From positions 1 to 54,370 of the forward strand of contig CALMZQ010000046.1 in assembly GCA_937870915.1 (NCBI GenBank): a DNA stretch of 54,370 nt. The letters are read 5' to 3'. The position numbers and the translations under genes were made by a program. A model generated the notes under the pieces. The model had not been told where the DNA came from and searched no databases. It was given only the letters and a program-made list of their open reading frames with translations. Positions 8,554 to 52,693 of this stretch are shown piece after piece (the stretch's first letter is position 1; each line of letters starts with the position of its first letter). The stretch comes from an uncultured Ignavibacteria bacterium. GTDB lineage: Bacteria > Bacteroidota > Ignavibacteria > Kapaibacteriales > Kapaibacteriaceae.

Positions 8554-9654
8554 ATGATCATAGGCGTACTCAAGGAGACTCTACCTGGTGAACGGCGTGT
8601 GGCCCTCGTTCCATCAGCTTGTCTTCAACTATCCAAACAGGGTCACGCCGTTCATGTGGAGCAGGGGGCTGGGTTAGCCGCCGGGTTCGACGATGCTGCC
8701 TATCAGACTGCCGGAGCCGTGGTGGCATCCCGCAGCGAGGTCATCGCCGCTGCTGCCACTCTCATCAGGGTGGCCGTTCCAAGCACCGCAGAGATCGCAG
8801 AAATGCGCGGCGGTACGTCGGTTGTCTCCTATATCTACCCGAAGAGACATCGCAATGTTCTCGACGCGTTAGCAGCACAAGGCGTCAATGCCTTTGCGCT
8901 TGATGCCATGCCTCGTATTACGCGGGCGCAGAGCATGGACGTGCTTTCGTCTCAGAACAACCTTGCCGGCTACAAGGCCGTTGTGTTGGGCGCGAACGCT
9001 TTGGGTCGGATATTCCCGCTCATGATGACTGCTGCCGGCACGGTCACACCGGCAAAGGTGCTCATCTACGGTGCAGGTGTAGCCGGACTTCAGGCAATTG
9101 CAACTGCAAAGCGCCTCGGTGCTCGTATCGAAGTGAGCGACATCCGCCCGGAGACAAAGGAACAGGTTGAATCCTTGGGCGGAAAGTTCATCATGGTAGA
9201 AGGTCTCGACAAAGTAAATATCGAAGGGGGCTATGTGGCCTCTGTAAGTCCGGAGATCCTTGCCAAGCAAAAAGAAGCAGTCGAAAAATCTCTTGTCGAA
9301 GCCGACCTCGTGATCACTACAGCACTTGTTGCCGGTGGAACGGCTCCAACACTCATTACGGCCGCTCAGGTTGGAAAGATGAAACGTGGTTCGGTGATCA
9401 TCGACATGGCCACGGAAGCCGGCGGTAATTGCGAGCTCAGCAAACCTGATGAGACAGTGGAGCACAATGGCGTTACGATCATCGGATGTAATAACCTTGC
9501 ATCGTCGGTCCCAACACATGCAAGTGAGCTCTATGCCAAGAACGTCACAACATTTCTTGCAGCGGTTACCAAGCCAGAAGGGTTCACCTTCGACCTCGCA
9601 GACGAAGTGGTAGCAGCAACACTCGTTACGTATAACAAGGAGGTTCGAGCATAA
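8554..9654 (+). CDS. pntA: NAD(P) transhydrogenase subunit alpha, part 1 (NAD-binding domain I)
   Basis: This 366-aa cytoplasmic subunit binds NAD(H) for the proton-translocating transhydrogenase. It opens with MIIGVLKETLPGERRVALVP, the standard beginning of the AlaDH/PNT family, which sets the start at 8554 rather than at the TTG 27 bases upstream. The Rossmann motif YGAGVAGLQAIATAKRLGA lies near residue 165, and the family segment RITRAQSMDVLSSQNNLAGY near residue 120. It is full length for the split form, in which domain I and the membrane part of alpha are separate proteins. Its TAA overlaps the next ATG by one base. Confidence 0.95.
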   Translation: MIIGVLKETLPGERRVALVPSACLQLSKQGHAVHVEQGAGLAAGFDDAAYQTAGAVVASRSEVIAAAATLIRVAVPSTAEIAEMRGGTSVVSYIYPKRHRNVLDALAAQGVNAFALDAMPRITRAQSMDVLSSQNNLAGYKAVVLGANALGRIFPLMMTAAGTVTPAKVLIYGAGVAGLQAIATAKRLGARIEVSDIRPETKEQVESLGGKFIMVEGLDKVNIEGGYVASVSPEILAKQKEAVEKSLVEADLVITTALVAGGTAPTLITAAQVGKMKRGSVIIDMATEAGGNCELSKPDETVEHNGVTIIGCNNLASSVPTHASELYAKNVTTFLAAVTKPEGFTFDLADEVVAATLVTYNKEVRA

Positions 9655-9938
9655 TGGATCCCGCAACCCTCAATATGGTCTACCTCGTTATCCTGATGAT
9701 CTTCCTCGGGATCGAGCTTATCACACACGTTCCAAGTGTTCTGCATACACCTCTGATGAGCGGCGCAAACGCCATTCACGGCGTGGTAATCATTGGCTCC
9801 ATCATTGTGATGGGCGAAGCAACGGATATGTTCTCGATGACCCTCGGCTTTCTGGCCGTCATCCTCGGAACCCTCAACGTGGTCGGCGGCTTCGTCGTCA
9901 CAAATCGCATGCTCGAAATGTTCAAGAAGAGGCAATGA
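9654..9938 (+). CDS. pntAB: NAD(P) transhydrogenase subunit alpha, part 2 (membrane)
   Basis: This 94-aa, almost wholly hydrophobic protein supplies three transmembrane helices of the proton channel. It contains the family signature VPSVLHTPLMSGANAIHG (residues about 26-43). The start overlaps the domain I stop (TAATG), and its own stop overlaps the beta gene, so the three subunits are translationally chained. The split alpha arrangement is common in bacteria outside the enterobacteria. Confidence 0.95.
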   Translation: MDPATLNMVYLVILMIFLGIELITHVPSVLHTPLMSGANAIHGVVIIGSIIVMGEATDMFSMTLGFLAVILGTLNVVGGFVVTNRMLEMFKKRQ

Positions 9939-11338
9939 TGGACAGTATTCTACCGATTCTCTATCTCATTGCCTCCATCACGTTTATCATCGGCATTAAG
10001 ATGCTCGGCTCGCCGGCAACTGCCCGCAAGGGTAATCTTGTTGCTGCATTTGGAATGGGGCTTGCCATTTTTGGTACGATCTTCCTCTACAAGACGTCAA
10101 GCGGCGAACACCTGGGGAATCTCCCGTTGATCTTTGGTGGACTCATCGTTGGTACGGTGGTTGGTTGGATCATGGCAAAACGTGTGAAGATGACGGCTAT
10201 GCCACAAATGGTGTCTTTCTTCAACGGGATGGGTGGCGCCTGCGCCGCATTGATCTCACTCATCGAAGAAGCGCACCGCGACCCATCAGCCACGCACGAT
10301 CCTGTGCATTCTCTTACGATTATTGCCGGTCTTGTGATCGGAAGTGTTTCGTTCAGCGGTTCGATCATTGCCTTTGGCAAGCTCGCCGAAAAGATCAAGG
10401 ACTTATCCTTTAGTGGACAGCAATTCCTCAACATCCTCGTTCTTGGTGGTGTTGCTGTTCTTTCCGTCATGTTTGTGCTTGGCTCTCTCTCAGGACTCAC
10501 GTTCCTCTTAGTACTCTGCGCACTTGCCCTCGCCTACGGCGTCCTCTTTGTGATGCCGATCGGTGGCGCAGATATGCCCGTGGTGATCTCGTTGCTGAAT
10601 TCCTTTACGGGTGTTGCCGCAGCGTGCGGCGGATTCCTCTACGACAACATGGTGATGCTCATCGGTGGTATCCTCGTTGGCTCTGCAGGTACGATCCTGA
10701 CGATCATCATGTGCAAGTCGATGAACCGTTCGTTGGCTAATGTGCTCTTTGGCGGACTCATGAGCGCAAAGGCGGCAGCCACCGGTGGCGGCAAAACGGC
10801 TACTGGATCCATTCGCGAAGTCTCTGCTACGGACGGTGCAGTGCTCATGGCATATGCAAAACAAGTGGTGATCGTGCCTGGCTACGGCTTGGCGGTTGCT
10901 CAAGCTCAACATATCTGTCACCAACTCGAGCACGAGCTCGAAGCCAAGGGTGTCATTGTCAAATACGCCGTTCACCCTGTAGCCGGACGTATGCCTGGTC
11001 ACATGAACGTTCTCCTTGCTGAAGCAGACGTGTCCTACGATAAGCTCGTAGAGATGGAAGAAATCAATCCGGAGTTCGCAACAACAGACGTCGTACTTGT
11101 GGTTGGCGCGAATGACGTAGTGAACCCTGCCGCAAAGACCGACCCAGATTCTCCGATCTATGGCATGCCGATTCTCGATGTAGAAGCGTCACGTCAGGTG
11201 ATCGTGATGAAACGTTCGATGAAGGCCGGCTATGCGGGCATCGAAAACGAACTCTTCTATCGCCCAAATACATCCATGCTCTTCGGTGACGCAAAGGCAT
11301 CGCTAACAGCTCTCGTGAATGAAGTAAAGGCGTTGTGA
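9935..11338 (+). CDS. pntB: NAD(P) transhydrogenase subunit beta
   Basis: This 467-aa subunit has an N-terminal membrane part (residues 1-280, several helices) and a C-terminal NADP(H)-binding domain III. The NADP motif is VPGYGLAVAQAQH (about residue 314). VHPVAGRMPGHMNVLLAEA and GANDVVNPAA are the standard domain III loops. With the two alpha proteins it uses the proton gradient to reduce NADP+ with NADH. Two in-frame ATGs stand side by side at 9935 and 9938, and the first gives a four-base overlap. Its TGA stop is the first bases of a GAATAGC array that fills the whole gap to metZ. Confidence 0.95.
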   Translation: MMDSILPILYLIASITFIIGIKMLGSPATARKGNLVAAFGMGLAIFGTIFLYKTSSGEHLGNLPLIFGGLIVGTVVGWIMAKRVKMTAMPQMVSFFNGMGGACAALISLIEEAHRDPSATHDPVHSLTIIAGLVIGSVSFSGSIIAFGKLAEKIKDLSFSGQQFLNILVLGGVAVLSVMFVLGSLSGLTFLLVLCALALAYGVLFVMPIGGADMPVVISLLNSFTGVAAACGGFLYDNMVMLIGGILVGSAGTILTIIMCKSMNRSLANVLFGGLMSAKAAATGGGKTATGSIREVSATDGAVLMAYAKQVVIVPGYGLAVAQAQHICHQLEHELEAKGVIVKYAVHPVAGRMPGHMNVLLAEADVSYDKLVEMEEINPEFATTDVVLVVGANDVVNPAAKTDPDSPIYGMPILDVEASRQVIVMKRSMKAGYAGIENELFYRPNTSMLFGDAKASLTALVNEVKAL

Positions 11339-11399
11339 ATAGCGAATAGCGAATAGCGAATAGCGAATAGCGAATAGCGAACAGAGAACAGAGAACAGA
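11337..11399. repeat. GAAYAGC heptamer array B (9 units)
   Basis: Six perfect GAATAGC units are followed by three GAACAGA units. The first unit overlaps the pntB stop codon (TGAATAGC), and the last ends two bases before the metZ ATG. The array is therefore the entire pntB-metZ gap, including the place where a ribosome binding site for metZ should be. Confidence 0.95.
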
Positions 11400-11401
11400 G
11401 A

Positions 11402-12550
11402 ATGAATACATCGAACATCAGAACTCAAATTAAACAGACGCAGGAACACGAACACTCGACGCCATTGTATATGACGTCGAGTTTTGTGTTTGATGATGCG
11501 GAGCACATGCGTGCGTTGTTTGCAGAGGAGCAGCAGGGCAACATCTACTCGCGGTTCACGAATCCGAATACAACCGAGTTTGTGAACAAGATGGTTGCGA
11601 TGGAAGGTGCAGAGGCTGGTGTAGCCACTTCCACTGGGATGGCTGCAGGTTTTGCATCCATCATGGGGCTTTTGAGATCGGGAGATCATATCGTTGCGTC
11701 GCGTGCGGTGTTTGGAAGCACCCATGCCTTGCTTACGCAGTTCTTGCCGCGTTGGGGTATCACGCATACCTATGTTGACATCGACAACAATGCGCAATGG
11801 GAAGAAGCTGTCACCGAATCAACAAAGATGCTCTTGGTAGAGAGTCCGTCAAACCCCGGACTTGAGATCGCTGATCTTGCCTTCCTTGGAGAGCTTGCAG
11901 CTCGGCGCAATGTGATCCTTAACGTGGATAACACGTTTGCAACGCCCCTTCTCCAACGTCCAATAGAGTTCGGTGCTCATATCGTCTGGCACTCTGCAAC
12001 AAAGTGGATAGACGGTCAGGGTAGGGGGCTAGGTGGCGTGGTTGTTGGACGTGCCGATCTTCTGCGCGAGATCTATCTCTTTGCGCGTAACACAGGTCCA
12101 ACAATGTCGCCATTTAATGCATGGATGTTCTCAAAGAGTCTGGAAACACTCCACGTCCGGCTTGACCGACATTGCTCCAATGCCCTTGCCGTTGCGCAGT
12201 TCCTTGAGTCACATCCAAACGTTGGACGTGTGATGTATCCATTTCTTCCCTCACACCCGCAACATGAGGTTGCACTACAACAAATGAAGCTCGGTGGTGG
12301 CTTGGTTTCCTTTATACACAAGGACGGCGCTGAAGGGGGCAAACGTTTCGTTAATGGACTGCGGTTGGCATCGGTCACAGCAAACATCGGTGATACACGC
12401 ACCATCGTGACGCATCCAGCTACCTCCACCCATGCACGCCTAACCGAAGAAGCACGTCAGGCCGTTGGAATCACACAAGGCATGGTACGGCTCAGCATTG
12501 GGTTGGAAGATGTTGGGGATATTATAGGTGATCTCGCGCAAGCTCTCTGA
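11402..12550 (+). CDS. metZ: O-succinylhomoserine sulfhydrylase / cystathionine gamma-synthase family enzyme
   Basis: This 382-aa cytosolic PLP enzyme of the Cys/Met metabolism family makes homocysteine for methionine synthesis. The PLP lysine is K201 in HSATKWIDGQGRG; the IDGQGR continuation is typical of MetZ rather than MetB. YSRFTNP (49-55) binds the phosphate from the neighbouring subunit, and DNTFATP (176-182) holds the PLP ring aspartate. Length is normal. Its ATG directly follows array B and its TGA starts array C, so it is bracketed by heptamers. No Shine-Dalgarno sequence is visible other than AGAGA-like bases of the repeat. MetB-type activity cannot be excluded from sequence alone. 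Confidence 0.9.
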   Translation: MNTSNIRTQIKQTQEHEHSTPLYMTSSFVFDDAEHMRALFAEEQQGNIYSRFTNPNTTEFVNKMVAMEGAEAGVATSTGMAAGFASIMGLLRSGDHIVASRAVFGSTHALLTQFLPRWGITHTYVDIDNNAQWEEAVTESTKMLLVESPSNPGLEIADLAFLGELAARRNVILNVDNTFATPLLQRPIEFGAHIVWHSATKWIDGQGRGLGGVVVGRADLLREIYLFARNTGPTMSPFNAWMFSKSLETLHVRLDRHCSNALAVAQFLESHPNVGRVMYPFLPSHPQHEVALQQMKLGGGLVSFIHKDGAEGGKRFVNGLRLASVTANIGDTRTIVTHPATSTHARLTEEARQAVGITQGMVRLSIGLEDVGDIIGDLAQAL

Positions 12551-12580
12551 ATAGCGAATAGCGAATAGCGAATAGCGAAT
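12549..12580. repeat. GAAYAGC heptamer array C (4 units)
   Basis: Four perfect GAATAGC units and a final GAAT fill the gap between two convergent genes. The first unit overlaps the metZ TGA, and the last partial unit runs into the stop of the minus-strand ligase homologue at 12581. Nothing that looks like a terminator lies between these genes. Confidence 0.95.
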
Positions 12581-13423
12581 TCAATCGATCGAATCAACGT
12601 GCGCCAAGGCGTGGTTCGGCAGCCACGCTACAATGCGTGCTCCTAAGAGTTTGATGCCGCTCTTGGTTCGGGTTGATGGTACGATATCGGTGTAGGCGAT
12701 CTCCACAATGATCCCTACAGAAACCCAATGGGTGGGTCCGAACTTCTCAACGGTGCGTTGTGTTGCCAGACCTTCAACGATAGTGCTGATCTCCTCGTTG
12801 AAGGTGTTGGGGATTTTGGCAAGGGGCACGTAGATCTCACCTTTCTTTACGCCAACGGTGAAGTGACTATAGGTTTGTTGGCCGATGCTTGGTGCCTTGT
12901 GTGCATAGAGCACGGTTGTGATCATGCGGTGTTCAGTTGCTTCGGCCGCTTCTACATGTTGTTGTGGTAGGTCACAACGGGTTGGACGTGAACCAGTAAT
13001 GATGCGGGTAAGCACGATGCGTTCCCAAACGGAACACACCTGCAGCATAGCGAGGATCACTTCAGAGCGAGAGCGGAGGTCACTGTGTTGGAGAGATGTC
13101 AGTAACGAGATTGTTGACTCTAGTGAGTGCTCGCAATGCGAATCAGAACGAGGGAGGAGTAGAGCTGATGTTTCTGCAAGTGTGCCGCCCATTGTGCGTG
13201 ACTGATCGATAAGCCACTGTGGAAGTGGCGCGACGGATTGTACAGCAGATGCAACTTCACGTGGACGAAGTATGCGAAGGCATAGCGATCCATCGATCAA
13301 CGACATAGCAAGGGCAGCGGTCTCTGAGGATACAGAAGAACCATACGTATCGATCATCTGGCGCATCACGTTCGGTCGTGTTGTGCGTTCGAGATCTGCG
13401 CAGAGTTCGGCGAAACGATTCAT
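12581..13423 (-). CDS. ATP-dependent DNA ligase homologue lacking the nucleotidyltransferase core
   Basis: The 280-aa protein matches the two ends of the ligase family found next to ligase-associated exonuclease (the PP_1105-type family, about 530 aa) without its middle. Residues 1-150 are the N-terminal DNA-binding domain (FAELCADLERTT, LAETSALLLP, ERIVLTRIITG). Residues about 167-280 are the C-terminal OB-fold part (TTVLYAHKA, VPLAKIPNTFNEEI, ERFGP-like VEKFGP). Motif VI survives as R252-T-K254-S-G. The adenylation domain, including the KxDG nucleophile motif, is absent with no frameshift. It should be unable to form the enzyme-AMP and may instead bind nicked DNA or a partner. Its ATG overlaps the exonuclease stop (ATGA). 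Confidence 0.8.
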   Translation of the reverse strand: MNRFAELCADLERTTRPNVMRQMIDTYGSSVSSETAALAMSLIDGSLCLRILRPREVASAVQSVAPLPQWLIDQSRTMGGTLAETSALLLPRSDSHCEHSLESTISLLTSLQHSDLRSRSEVILAMLQVCSVWERIVLTRIITGSRPTRCDLPQQHVEAAEATEHRMITTVLYAHKAPSIGQQTYSHFTVGVKKGEIYVPLAKIPNTFNEEISTIVEGLATQRTVEKFGPTHWVSVGIIVEIAYTDIVPSTRTKSGIKLLGARIVAWLPNHALAHVDSID

Positions 13424-14394
13424 ATTGCAAGCACCTCTGCGGACCGTCCCTGTTCGCGTAGGTATTGAACCACCTCTGAGGCAAAGCCATGTGTCACTAC
13501 GATGTGTTCTGCTTCGGTCTCTGAAATTGCCTTGTGAAGATCGTCCCAGTCAACATGGTCACTCATCACAAACCCCGCCCCTGCATTTCGTCTTCGGCCC
13601 GGCTCTGTTGCTGTCCAACCCGATGCGAATGCCATATCAACACCAACAGAACGTGCTGCAGGGAGATCCTGCAGGTCTCTAGCTCCGGAGGCAAGGATTA
13701 GCCCCCTTATCAACGTTTCTTGCGAAATGGAGTGTGACAATATGGACGTCTCTGCTACGGAGATGCCGGAAGCACGAATGCACTCGTTTGCAGCATGTAT
13801 TCCCGGACTAACGGTAAGGGGCACGTGGTGAGCAAGGAGTCCAATCAGTCGCTGCGCTTTTCCAAGCGAATACACCTGCACAGCACTTGCAACACCACAC
13901 GCCGTATTGGCTCTATGCCAGCGCAGGATGGCGGCCACAACCTCGTCATCAGACGGCCAATGGTAAATAGGTAATCCGAACGTTGATTCTGTGATGAATG
14001 TATCGCATCGTAGTGGGTGGAAGGGGGCGGCATATGGGTCGGGTTGACGTTTGTAATCACCGGAAACCACCCATACCTCGCCCCCTGCTTCAACGCGGAC
14101 CTGTGACGAACCGATCATATGGCCGGCAGGGAAGAGCGAGACCGAGACATCGTTCATTTTGACCACCTCCCCATATTCCACGGACTGCGTAGATATCGAC
14201 CGAGATATTCGATGAAGCAGCAATCGAACCGTGTGGCGGTGGGCTAGGTAATGTCGCATTCCCGGCCGTGCATGATCGCTATGGGCGTGGGTGATCACGG
14301 CCCGTTCTACTGACCGAACGGGGTCGATGTAAAAGTTGCCCCGTTCACAGAACAAACCACGATCTGTTAGCGTCAATAGTCCTGAGGAAGCCAT
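13420..14394 (-). CDS. Ligase-associated DNA exonuclease (metallo-beta-lactamase fold)
   Basis: This 324-aa protein belongs to the beta-lactamase-fold nucleases of the CPSF73/SNM1 group that travel with ATP-dependent DNA ligases. The metal motif HAHSDHARPG (H36, H38, D40, H41) is intact. Further ligands are likely in PAGHMIGSSQ, VSGDYKRQPDPY, TESTFGLP and VVTHGF. Length is normal, so unlike its ligase partner it looks active. The usual partners of this locus are a ligase, a DEXH-box helicase and a phosphoesterase; here only the truncated ligase is next to it, four bases overlapping. TAGTTTG sits shortly before the start codon on the minus strand. Confidence 0.88.
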   Translation of the reverse strand: MASSGLLTLTDRGLFCERGNFYIDPVRSVERAVITHAHSDHARPGMRHYLAHRHTVRLLLHRISRSISTQSVEYGEVVKMNDVSVSLFPAGHMIGSSQVRVEAGGEVWVVSGDYKRQPDPYAAPFHPLRCDTFITESTFGLPIYHWPSDDEVVAAILRWHRANTACGVASAVQVYSLGKAQRLIGLLAHHVPLTVSPGIHAANECIRASGISVAETSILSHSISQETLIRGLILASGARDLQDLPAARSVGVDMAFASGWTATEPGRRRNAGAGFVMSDHVDWDDLHKAISETEAEHIVVTHGFASEVVQYLREQGRSAEVLAI

Positions 14395-40187: not shown

Positions 40188-40264
40188 GAACAGCGAATGT
40201 TGAACAGCGAACAGCGAACAGCGATTGTTAAACAGCGAACAGCGAACAGCGAACAGCGAACGAA
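40188..40264. repeat. GAAYAGC heptamer array D (11 units, interrupted)
   Basis: Mostly GAACAGC units, with two degenerate insertions (GAATGTT and GATTGTT). It begins two bases from the ABC transporter ATG (minus strand) and fills the gap almost to the next gene's stop region. All units here are the C variant apart from the degenerate ones. Confidence 0.9.
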
Positions 40265-46490: not shown

Positions 46491-46567
46491 AAATAGGGAA
46501 TAGGGAATAGAGAATAGAGAATAGAGAATAGCGAATAGCGAATAGCGAACAGGGAATAGCGAATAGC
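46491..46567. repeat. GAAYAGC heptamer array E (11 units)
   Basis: Eleven units with a change in the last base along the array: two end in G, three in A, then six mainly in C. One unit is GAACAGG. The array lies in the gap between the divergent lipoprotein and beta-barrel genes and is followed by the GTAGCCCATGAC palindrome. On the minus strand it is open in all frames. Confidence 0.95.
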
Positions 46568-46579
46568 GAAATTCTGTAG

Positions 46580-47209: not shown

Positions 47210-47254
47210 AACAGAGAACGAATAGCGAATAGCGAATAGCGAACAGCGAACAGC
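47209..47254. repeat. GAAYAGC heptamer array F (6 units)
   Basis: One GAACAGA, a partial GAAC, three GAATAGC and two GAACAGC units start at the last base of the barrel gene's TAG stop. The array is followed by TGCCGAGCG..CGAGGCA and two CCCATGAC hairpins. Confidence 0.92.
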
Positions 47255-50728: not shown

Positions 50729-50907
50729 TTATGACGTTATGACGATTATGACAGTTATGACAGTTATGACAGTTATGACAGTTATGACAGGTATGACAGT
50801 TATGACGATATGACAGTTATGACAGTTATGACAGTTATGACAATCATGAAAGTTATGACGTAATGACAAGTGTGACGTCATAACGTCATAAAAGTCATAA
50901 CGTCATA
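50729..50907. repeat. TATGACAGT satellite with inverted ends
   Basis: About 15 units of a nine-base repeat, TATGACAGT with variants, fill the gap between the paralogue's stop (50913) and the helicase's start (50722). The ends are inverted: TATGACGTTATGAC at 50730-50743 is the exact complement of GTCATAACGTCATA at 50894-50907. The last 40 bases therefore read in the opposite direction and the whole block could fold into a long hairpin. Confidence 0.92.
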
Positions 50908-50912
50908 GTTCT

Positions 50913-51809
50913 TCATCGTACATCATACCGGTTCAGGGCATTCCCAAAACTTCTACGAATCGATTCAAACTCGCGTGAGGTTTGTTTGGAGCCCCTTGCA
51001 GCAATCACGGCGGACTCGATGGTGTCTGTTTCTCCAAACCACGGAAGAGGGGAGTGGCCGGCAACGGAGATCATAAGATCTTTGCCGTTCTTTCTGTCAA
51101 GGTAGAAGTGGTCTTTGAGTGCGCCGAGGATTTCACCTGCTTCATACAGCGAAAGGGCGTTCATCTCAATTGTGCCTGTACCATCGTGAATGATGCGTAC
51201 GATATCATCGGGACTCGTGATGAAGTACTGCACAGCACCAACAAATGCGCGCTCTGCCAAACTTGGCCTACGCTTCTCAACCTTCGCTGCAATAGGCGCT
51301 TGCAAAGGCGCTGAAACAGCCGCTTGCAAAGGCGCTTGTAAAGGCGCTTGCAAAGGCGCTTGTAAAGGCGCTTGAAAAGGCGCTTGAAAAGCCGAAGGCG
51401 CTGAAACAGGAATCACCGATTCCTTATCTATTCCTCCCTTTGTCTCATAACGTTTCTTGACCGCTTCCACATAAACATCAATCTCGGCGATTGCAAGATC
51501 TACAATGAAGTATGCCTTTCCGAGTCGGTCTACAAACGCATTGATCTTACGGAACCGCACATCTTTGCTTAGGTCCGTATACGCAAAGTGGTCAAAGCCC
51601 GTTGCCGCGCGTACAAGTTCCGCTTGACGTAGTTCCTCACGAGGATTATTCTTTGCTACCCAACGTTGAATCCGCCGAGCTCTATTGAGGGCCTGTTTCA
51701 GGTCCGAGTCAAAGTCGCCATTGTTCAACTGTTTCACACGCGCTTGGATCTCGCCATTGCTCGTGAGCTCAATGACCATAACGAGAAAGTCGAATTCTTC
51801 TTGTGTCAT
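50913..51809 (-). CDS. Paralogue 2 of a tandem pair with variable Pro/Ala/Gln linker
   Basis: The 298-aa protein starts at MTQEEFDFL to match its paralogue; an ATG 18 bases upstream overlaps the previous stop. Residues 1-150 are helical, with an RRIQRW-type segment. A linker of PLQAPLQAPLQA repeats (DNA 51292-51400, 12-bp period) follows. The last 130 residues (KRRPSLAERAFVGAVQYFIT to SREFESIRRSF) are almost the same as in paralogue 1. I do not recognise either domain. The genes were duplicated in tandem and the C-terminal part was kept alike. Confidence 0.7.
   Translation of the reverse strand: MTQEEFDFLVMVIELTSNGEIQARVKQLNNGDFDSDLKQALNRARRIQRWVAKNNPREELRQAELVRAATGFDHFAYTDLSKDVRFRKINAFVDRLGKAYFIVDLAIAEIDVYVEAVKKRYETKGGIDKESVIPVSAPSAFQAPFQAPLQAPLQAPLQAPLQAAVSAPLQAPIAAKVEKRRPSLAERAFVGAVQYFITSPDDIVRIIHDGTGTIEMNALSLYEAGEILGALKDHFYLDRKNGKDLMISVAGHSPLPWFGETDTIESAVIAARGSKQTSREFESIRRSFGNALNRYDVR
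51292..51400. repeat. Coding repeat, 12-bp period, in paralogue 2
   Basis: About eight copies of AGGCGCTTGNAA, read on the minus strand as the peptide unit LQAP. It is in frame and would change the linker length by four residues per unit if copies were gained or lost. Confidence 0.85.
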
Positions 51810-51823
51810 TACGTCACAACTCT

Positions 51824-52693
51824 TCATCGTACATCAAATCGATGCAGATCTCTCGTAAAGCTCCTACGGATCGATTCGAACTCGCGGGAGGTTTGTTTGG
51901 AGCCCCGTGCAGCTATTACAGCAGATTCAATAGTATCGGTCTCGCCGAACCATGGTAAGGGGGCATGTCCAGCCACGGAAATCAGAAGATCTTTGCCGTT
52001 CTTTCGGTCGAGATAGAAGTGGTCTTTGAGAGCGCCCAAGATCTCGCCCGCTTCATAGAGCGAGAGGGCATTCATTTCAATGGTGCCAGTGCCGTCTTGA
52101 ATGATACGTACGATATCGTCAGGTGACGTGATGAAGTACTGCACAGCACCAACAAAGGCGCGCTCTGCCAAACTCGGTCTACGCTTCTCAACCTTCGCTG
52201 CCACAGGCGCTTTCAAAGGCGCTGAAACAGGCGCTTGAACAGGCGCTGAAACAGGCGCTTGAACAGGCGCTGAAACAGGCGCTTGAACAGGCGCTGAAAC
52301 AGGCGCTTGCAAAGCCACCGGAACCGCATCAAATCGTTCTTTCACAGCACCCACATAGGCATCGATCTCGCGTCTGGAAGCATCGAGGATGCTATAGCAA
52401 ATGCCGAGACGTTCAACATGCGACTTCGCGGCACGCAGGCGTGCGTCTACCATCACGTCGGAACCAGCAAAATGGTTGAAGCCACGTTCTGCACGTTCCA
52501 GTTCATGAGCACGGACATCAGCGCTTGGGTCATTGCGTCCCACCCACCGGCGGAGTCTGCGTGCTCTGTTCAATGCGAGTTTTAGATCAGCGTCGTATTC
52601 GCCCCTTTTCAGAGCATCAATGCGTTTTTGGACCTCACCCGTAGCGGTAAGGTCAATGATCATCTCCAAAAATTCTAACTCTTCCTGGGTCAA
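51824..52693 (-). CDS. Paralogue 1 of the tandem pair
   Basis: This 289-aa protein begins at a TTG (MTQEELEFL), the position that aligns with the paralogue. The N-terminal 140 residues differ more (LATGEVQKRI, GRNDPSADVR) and resemble it only in pattern. The linker is QAPVSAPV repeats, from a 24-bp DNA unit. The C-terminal 130 residues differ from paralogue 2 at only a few sites. The stop overlaps the next ATG. The C-terminal domain has DDIVRII, GTGTIEMNALSLYEAGEILG and LYLDRK-like segments, a helical pattern that could bind nucleic acid or protein; the function is unknown. Confidence 0.72.
   Translation of the reverse strand: MTQEELEFLEMIIDLTATGEVQKRIDALKRGEYDADLKLALNRARRLRRWVGRNDPSADVRAHELERAERGFNHFAGSDVMVDARLRAAKSHVERLGICYSILDASRREIDAYVGAVKERFDAVPVALQAPVSAPVQAPVSAPVQAPVSAPVQAPVSAPLKAPVAAKVEKRRPSLAERAFVGAVQYFITSPDDIVRIIQDGTGTIEMNALSLYEAGEILGALKDHFYLDRKNGKDLLISVAGHAPLPWFGETDTIESAVIAARGSKQTSREFESIRRSFTRDLHRFDVR
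52201..52318. repeat. Coding repeat, 24-bp period, in paralogue 1
   Basis: Four full copies of the 24-bp unit made of GGCGCTTGAACA and GGCGCTGAAACA, read on the minus strand as QAPVSAPV. It lies at the same place as the 12-bp repeat of paralogue 2. Confidence 0.88.

Follow-up and report, generated by a model that had tools for sequence, protein, structure and literature searches.

ATP-dependent DNA ligases wrap a nicked duplex with their N-terminal DNA-binding domain (DBD) and their OB domain, and the nucleotidyltransferase (NTase) domain transfers AMP. We take P. putida PP_1105 to be a LigB-type 'cisplatin damage response' ligase (TIGR04120/PRK09247), and the motif names I, III, IIIa, IV, V and VI used below to be the standard labels of the ligase superfamily. 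A cluster of genes for LigB, Lhr, a phosphoesterase and an exonuclease is credited to Ejaz and Shuman 2018 in two papers (PMC8301817, PMC10140301), the first of which describes its Lhr side, and in 2023 both the biological role of the LigB/Lhr/exonuclease cluster and the damage it targets were called unknown (PMC10140301). According to the latter report, natural nuclease-LigB fusions occur in Opitutus terrae and in Antarctic Dry Valley metagenomes, and the fusion tested carries DNA_ligase_A_M and has a ligase part that is active when produced separately (PMC10140301). A search by titles and the beginnings of abstracts, with most subscription journals outside its scope, found no account of a core-less or inactive LigB.

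The window analysed here, i.e. the whole stretch of 54,370 nucleotides, is contig C46 of a 3.32 Mb genome (G000; 233 contigs, 97% complete). On its reverse strand, positions 12581..13423 hold an uninterrupted, ATG-started frame for a LigB-like protein of 280 aa, composed of a DBD, a short linker and an OB domain. The preliminary description had read this protein as a ligase with both ends of the family and without the core, and had set similarity to both ends in a profile search beforehand as the test; NCBIfam indeed matches it in two homologous pieces in the correct order, DBD then OB (PRK09247: E 3e-31, 109 bits against a cut-off of 543; TIGR04120: E 5.9e-27, 94.8 bits against a cut-off of 400). 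The DBD covers TIGR04120 positions 2-143 (12989..13417, reverse strand) and the OB piece with the C-terminal tail positions 407-522 (12581..12913, reverse strand; the six-frame match extends 3 bases beyond the stop codon), while positions 144-406, the NTase core, are replaced by a junction of 25 unmatched residues (12914..12988, reverse strand), so that 263 model positions are gone. Pfam sees the DBD weakly (PF04675, E 0.029, below cut-off), and a PDB sequence search with the 280-aa protein returned nothing relevant, its one irrelevant hit having an E-value of 0.8. An AlphaFold2 model from two sequences (the window protein and that of L049) has a mean pLDDT of 36.9, too low for the fold to be used.

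Motif I (KxDG) and motifs III, IIIa, IV and V are all missing from the window protein when it is aligned with intact relatives (G016, G029, G195, G278, G234 and others), which bears out the earlier observation that the catalytic lysine motif is absent. Its OB domain is also without motif VI (RxDK) and the LRFPR stretch, with LLGAR and WLPNH standing at these columns. It retains E-K-F-G-P as well as, at residues 252-256, R-T-K-S-G, the RxKSG of the preliminary description, and the DBD retains its loop (G-T-L-A-E-T, compared with G-D-L-A-E-T in G016).

Immediately upstream, and overlapping the core-less gene by four bases (13420-13423), lies the gene for a ligase-associated metallo-beta-lactamase-fold exonuclease of 324 aa (13420..14394, reverse strand). 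As previously proposed, this partner is intact: it matches TIGR04122 with 367 bits, above the cut-off of 325 (NCBIfam), and retains all of its metal-binding motifs (HxHxDH, GD, SDH and HG), the first of which is found in 25 of 25 aligned exonucleases. TIGR04121 has no match over cut-off in G000, so that by profile search there is no Lhr beside the pair. The window also carries short arrays of a 7-base unit (GAATAGC or GAACAGC and rotations) at 161-191, 11337-11403, 12549-12580, 40202-40261, 46492-46570 and 47219-47254, two of which flank an ORF at 11402-12550, one ending beside the stop of the core-less gene, as well as other tandem arrays with 9-, 12- and 24-base units (50729-50868, 51288-51391 and 52196-52309).

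The association between the two genes extends well beyond the window. The 14 of 99 relatives that have an exonuclease over the cut-off are also the 14 that match the window protein; within the genus of the window, two of 11 genomes have both and nine have neither. Across the class, 30 of 391 genomes have an over-cut-off exonuclease, 26 of them together with a LigB-like gene by our counting rule (a TIGR04120 match starting before position 110, or an OB-only match starting after 398). In the other four, all from family f19 (G116, G151, G158 and G169), the TIGR04120 search found no LigB-like protein and the exonuclease neighbourhoods contain no gene with a LigB-family profile; the exonuclease can thus exist without a LigB-like protein, and the corresponding loci (L180-L183, in G116, G151, G169 and G158) represent a lone form of this ligase-associated nuclease. 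Conversely, three of 29 genomes with a LigB-like gene are without an over-cut-off exonuclease: G121, which is 81% complete, G280, which is 75% complete and whose ligase sits at the edge of a contig, and G246, where the frame is broken. At the locus of the latter (L149), the exonuclease frame (8737-9736), split into two ORFs, stands beside a motif-V-less ligase, perhaps reflecting decay of the whole pair. The genes may also lie apart, as in genus g48, where about 40 kb of one contig separate them in G102 and two contigs carry them in G112 and in G130, in G013, where the exonuclease lies about 10 kb from a core-less gene that adjoins lhr, and likewise in G251, whose dead ligase is separated from its exonuclease. 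The partnership is therefore strong and not obligatory. Lhr exceeds the TIGR04121 cut-off in G013, G016, G019 and G021 and, split into two pieces that lie on two contigs, in G020. It shares four bases with the core-less gene in G013, and likewise with the fusion gene (see below) in G020 and in G021.

The same short form, which had been expected in related genomes, is present in G003 of the same genus, with the same 280-aa layout and 66% identity to the window protein. A search of genome contigs found one relative of the window, Candidatus Kapaibacterium sp. contig JAPLFN010000016.1, and this is apparently the record of the G003 contig itself. In the family, TIGR04120 matches 13 of 23 genomes and none of the other ten, and core-less forms make up ten of these, five as separate genes (G000, G003, G011, G013 and G015) and five (G018-G022, genus g5) as fusions, in which the exonuclease is continued in the same frame by one DBD segment and the OB domain, giving proteins of 519-559 aa with the start codons chosen here. 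Three of the five fusions were scanned (G018, G020 and G021), and all three exceed the exonuclease cut-off and match the OB part of PRK09247 (E 4e-17 to 2e-14). In G015 the DBD is shorter, and in the fusions a single segment of it is left, so that DNA binding by the N-terminal part may be lost in these forms. The remaining three members are longer: G016 encodes a LigB that is intact by motif, G017 a full-length one in which motif I has become T-Y-D-G and motifs V and VI are lost, and G012 one with an eroded core.

A TIGR04120 search of the 391 genomes of the class added two further core-less lineages, genus g48 (G102, G112, G121 and G130, with proteins of 286-298 aa as listed) and G329 of family f28, whose gene is interrupted by contig ends and was treated as two separate pieces. 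Under the counting rule, which omits G138 (match 115-525), and with G022 outside the sample, the class contains 29 LigB-like genes: 14 core-less, four core-dead or eroded, three without motif V and eight apparently intact. The core-dead or eroded set comprises G012, G017 and two further full-length proteins, G248 (motif I S-I-D-G) and G251 (without K-x-D-G). Those without motif V (G113, G140 and G246) retain K-x-D-G but no longer show the lysine pattern of motif V, and G246 passes the TIGR04120 cut-off (409 bits) despite this loss. Of the apparently intact genes, G016, G029, G195, G234 and G278 are so by motif, and G226, G280 and G344 by score only. All 15 core-less OB domains retain R-x-K-(S/C/V)-G together with the G-P pair, and none has a complete motif VI: 14 have no R-x-D-K at these columns and G329 retains D-K alone, motif VI being somewhat variable among ligases with K-x-D-G too (e.g., R-K-D-L in G278). 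The LRFPR stretch is lost in the core-less forms of the family, and part of it (S-P or C-P) is retained in g48 and G329.

No core-less form was found outside the class among the matches listed for a phylum sample of 395 genomes; these reach down to about 72 bits, whereas core-less pieces score 20-80 bits in the class search, and G406 and G649, which had the weakest best matches in the sample, have no match among those listed. In the motif table, which includes 17 of the 18 ligase loci fetched, K-x-D-G is present in 15 of these 17. G410 and G414 (L167 and L168; family f32, another class) carry K-P-S-G and K-L-S-G, respectively, and have lost motifs III and V; by this motif loss they are likely pseudo-ligases, and full-length dead LigB proteins would thus have arisen outside the class too. 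Ligases of family f43, again from another class and suspected to be dead at 300-350 bits, were discarded as candidates, as KxDG is present in those inspected.

The core appears to have been lost more than once. For the five separate genes of the family the DBD piece stops within TIGR04120 positions 141-150, for g48 within 153-160 and for G329 at 185, and these differing ends fit separate deletion events. A tree built from 42 rows of DBD and OB columns requires at least three state changes for the core-less rows, and a single origin, with all 15 rows in one clade, is rejected (p-AU 0.014), in a tree with long branches. This tree joins g48 with the core-less rows of family f1 (support 97/91), and in a tree of the exonucleases (25 rows) g48 and G329 fall in with other families; given these different placements of g48 and the long branches, we put the number at no fewer than two separate losses, and probably three or more. 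The exonuclease tree also groups G017, G012 and G000 with G003 (support 91/83), which matches the expectation for a stepwise erosion.

What remains of the ligase is under purifying selection, most strongly in the OB domain. Between G000 and G003, the ligase gene as a whole has a pN/pS of 0.33; by region, the value is 0.118 for the OB domain, 0.43 for the DBD, 0.575 for the linker and 0.66 for the tail, and the exonuclease has 0.13. The values come from plain Nei-Gojobori counting and synonymous sites are close to saturation, so they are fit for comparison and are not exact rates. The OB part is thus constrained as tightly as the exonuclease, and the DBD less so. In the fused pair G018/G022, w is 0.078 in the DBD segment, 0.24 in the OB domain and 0.78 in the linker. 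Mean identities to intact ligases are 0.35-0.42 (DBD), 0.45-0.52 (NTase) and 0.56-0.71 (OB) for nine intact ligases themselves, 0.29-0.30, 0.36-0.39 and 0.50-0.52 for the three motif-V-less ones, in which the core exceeds the DBD, and 0.24-0.34, 0.21-0.40 and 0.33-0.46 for six with a dead or eroded core (G017, G012, G251, G248, G410 and G414), in four of which core identity falls below DBD identity, the exceptions being G248 and G012. For the core-less OB domains, the mean is 0.50 in G329, 0.39-0.45 in g48 and 0.25-0.34 in the ten forms of the family, which have thus drifted far, despite the constraint now seen on them between G000 and G003.

As for other ligases, PF01068 (ATP-ligase core) has no match in the 97%-complete G000, nor in any of the ten core-less family genomes, nor in the core-less G102, G112, G121, G130 and G329, three of which (G112, G121 and G130) are 79-88% complete. 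In the family it is present in three of 23 genomes, G016, G012 and, in two places, G017, where a separate short ATP-ligase core gene (L106, G017:C21:226420-227307) accompanies the motif-dead full-length LigB. PF01653 (NAD+ ligase) is present in all 23, G000 included. The preliminary description had envisaged a possible nick or end clamp for the exonuclease or for another ligase, and had suggested looking through the genome for a second, complete ligase. The exonuclease part of this proposal gains from the fusions in g5 and from the 14 relatives shared by nuclease and core-less match; service to another ATP-dependent ligase is unlikely, because none was detected in the genome, where the ligase found is the NAD+-dependent one.

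Several other explanations could account for such a gene. A host genome in 233 contigs invites the suspicion of an assembly or gene-calling artefact, but the same layout recurs in G003 with 66% identity and an OB constraint like that of the exonuclease, so that this is no assembly error, and with core-less forms in 13 further genomes the artefact is almost certainly not the answer. It is also extremely unlikely that the protein is one half of a split ligase whose core is provided in trans: a separate core gene does exist in G017, yet PF01068 has no match in G000 or in the other 14 genomes with a core-less form, and no core-less OB domain has the complete motif VI. A fresh pseudogene is ruled out by the other genomes and by selection. 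Slow decay, in which the ligase is being lost and what is left of it merely travels with the operon, would find an apt illustration in the graded series from G016 (intact) through G017 (dead motif I), G012 (eroded core) and G000 (core-less) to G015 (shorter still), in the absence of the pair from nine of 11 genomes of the genus, in the DBD pN/pS of 0.43 and in the low identity of the family's core-less OB domains to intact ones. Against it stand the pN/pS of the OB domain, at near-saturated synonymous sites, the retention of RxK(S/C/V)G and G-P in 15 of 15 core-less OB domains, the absence of internal stops from the listed core-less frames, in which the single TGA is the window gene's own end, and the repeated arrival at the same DBD-OB layout. 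The selection results refute neutral decay, and we consider decay in general very unlikely.

A more serious competitor, unlikely as we find it, holds that the protein is a nick shield or handover factor for the NAD+ ligase, marking nicks and recruiting or pacing LigA, and that its link to the exonuclease is an inherited operon only. The NAD+ ligase is available in every family genome, and the core-less gene lies apart from the exonuclease in g48 and G013; against such a role count the fusion of the core-less ligase to the exonuclease in five genomes and the nine of 11 genus genomes that have an NAD+ ligase and neither an over-cut-off exonuclease nor a core-less match. Because of this fusion to, and co-occurrence with, a nuclease whose active site is intact, a DNA-holding subunit of the exonuclease is the best-supported reading, and we regard it as probable that the 280-aa protein is a non-catalytic DNA-binding subunit of this kind, a retired ligase kept for its grip on DNA. 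Counting against it are the looser hold on the DBD between G000 and G003, the drift of the family's core-less OB domains, the four exonuclease genomes with no LigB-like protein detected, the separated genes in g48, G013 and G251, and the reduced DBDs of G015 and the fusions.

For such an exonuclease subunit, the sequences suggest the following course. An ancestral LigB with DBD, NTase and OB domains would have resided in a repair operon with the exonuclease and, often, the Lhr helicase. Catalysis would have been lost first and the entire catalytic domain thereafter; removal of the NTase domain from an architecture that wraps DNA between DBD and OB leaves two tethered DNA-facing modules. On their short linker these may hold double-stranded DNA, with nicks, gaps or ends as the probable sites, and position the exonuclease there, perhaps by direct contact, and the NAD+ ligase would take over sealing. 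Whether the LigB-exonuclease repair pathway of this class of bacteria runs without ligation by LigB, which would have been turned repeatedly into a DBD-OB recognition module and in one genus joined into the exonuclease, is to us an evenly balanced question. If so, directing the nuclease without catalysis would be part of what LigB did in this pathway ancestrally. The variants form a natural separation-of-function set, with ligation removed and the DNA-binding ends and the nuclease kept, which points to the selected part of the pathway and makes direction of the exonuclease by LigB a testable idea. They also outline a plausible path from enzyme to pseudoenzyme, by way of a dead motif, an eroded core, a deleted core and fusion to the partner.

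Compared with the described systems, the window protein shares with the LigB-type ligases (TIGR04120/PRK09247) homologous DBD and OB domains and an operon site beside a TIGR04122 exonuclease, in some relatives also beside a TIGR04121 Lhr, but differs from them in being without the NTase domain, motif VI and LRFPR, and in scoring 95 and 109 bits where 400 and 543 are the cut-offs. As in the cluster credited to Ejaz and Shuman 2018, the exonuclease is present and Lhr accompanies it in some genomes (G013, G016, G019, G020, in two pieces, and G021); in contrast to that cluster, the core-less members cannot ligate by the known mechanism, and G000 has no TIGR04121 match over cut-off. The g5 proteins resemble the Opitutus terrae and Dry Valley fusions in placing an operon-type nuclease ahead of a ligase DBD, but whereas the fusion tested is reported to carry a complete ligase (PMC10140301), those of g5 have no core and a single DBD segment.
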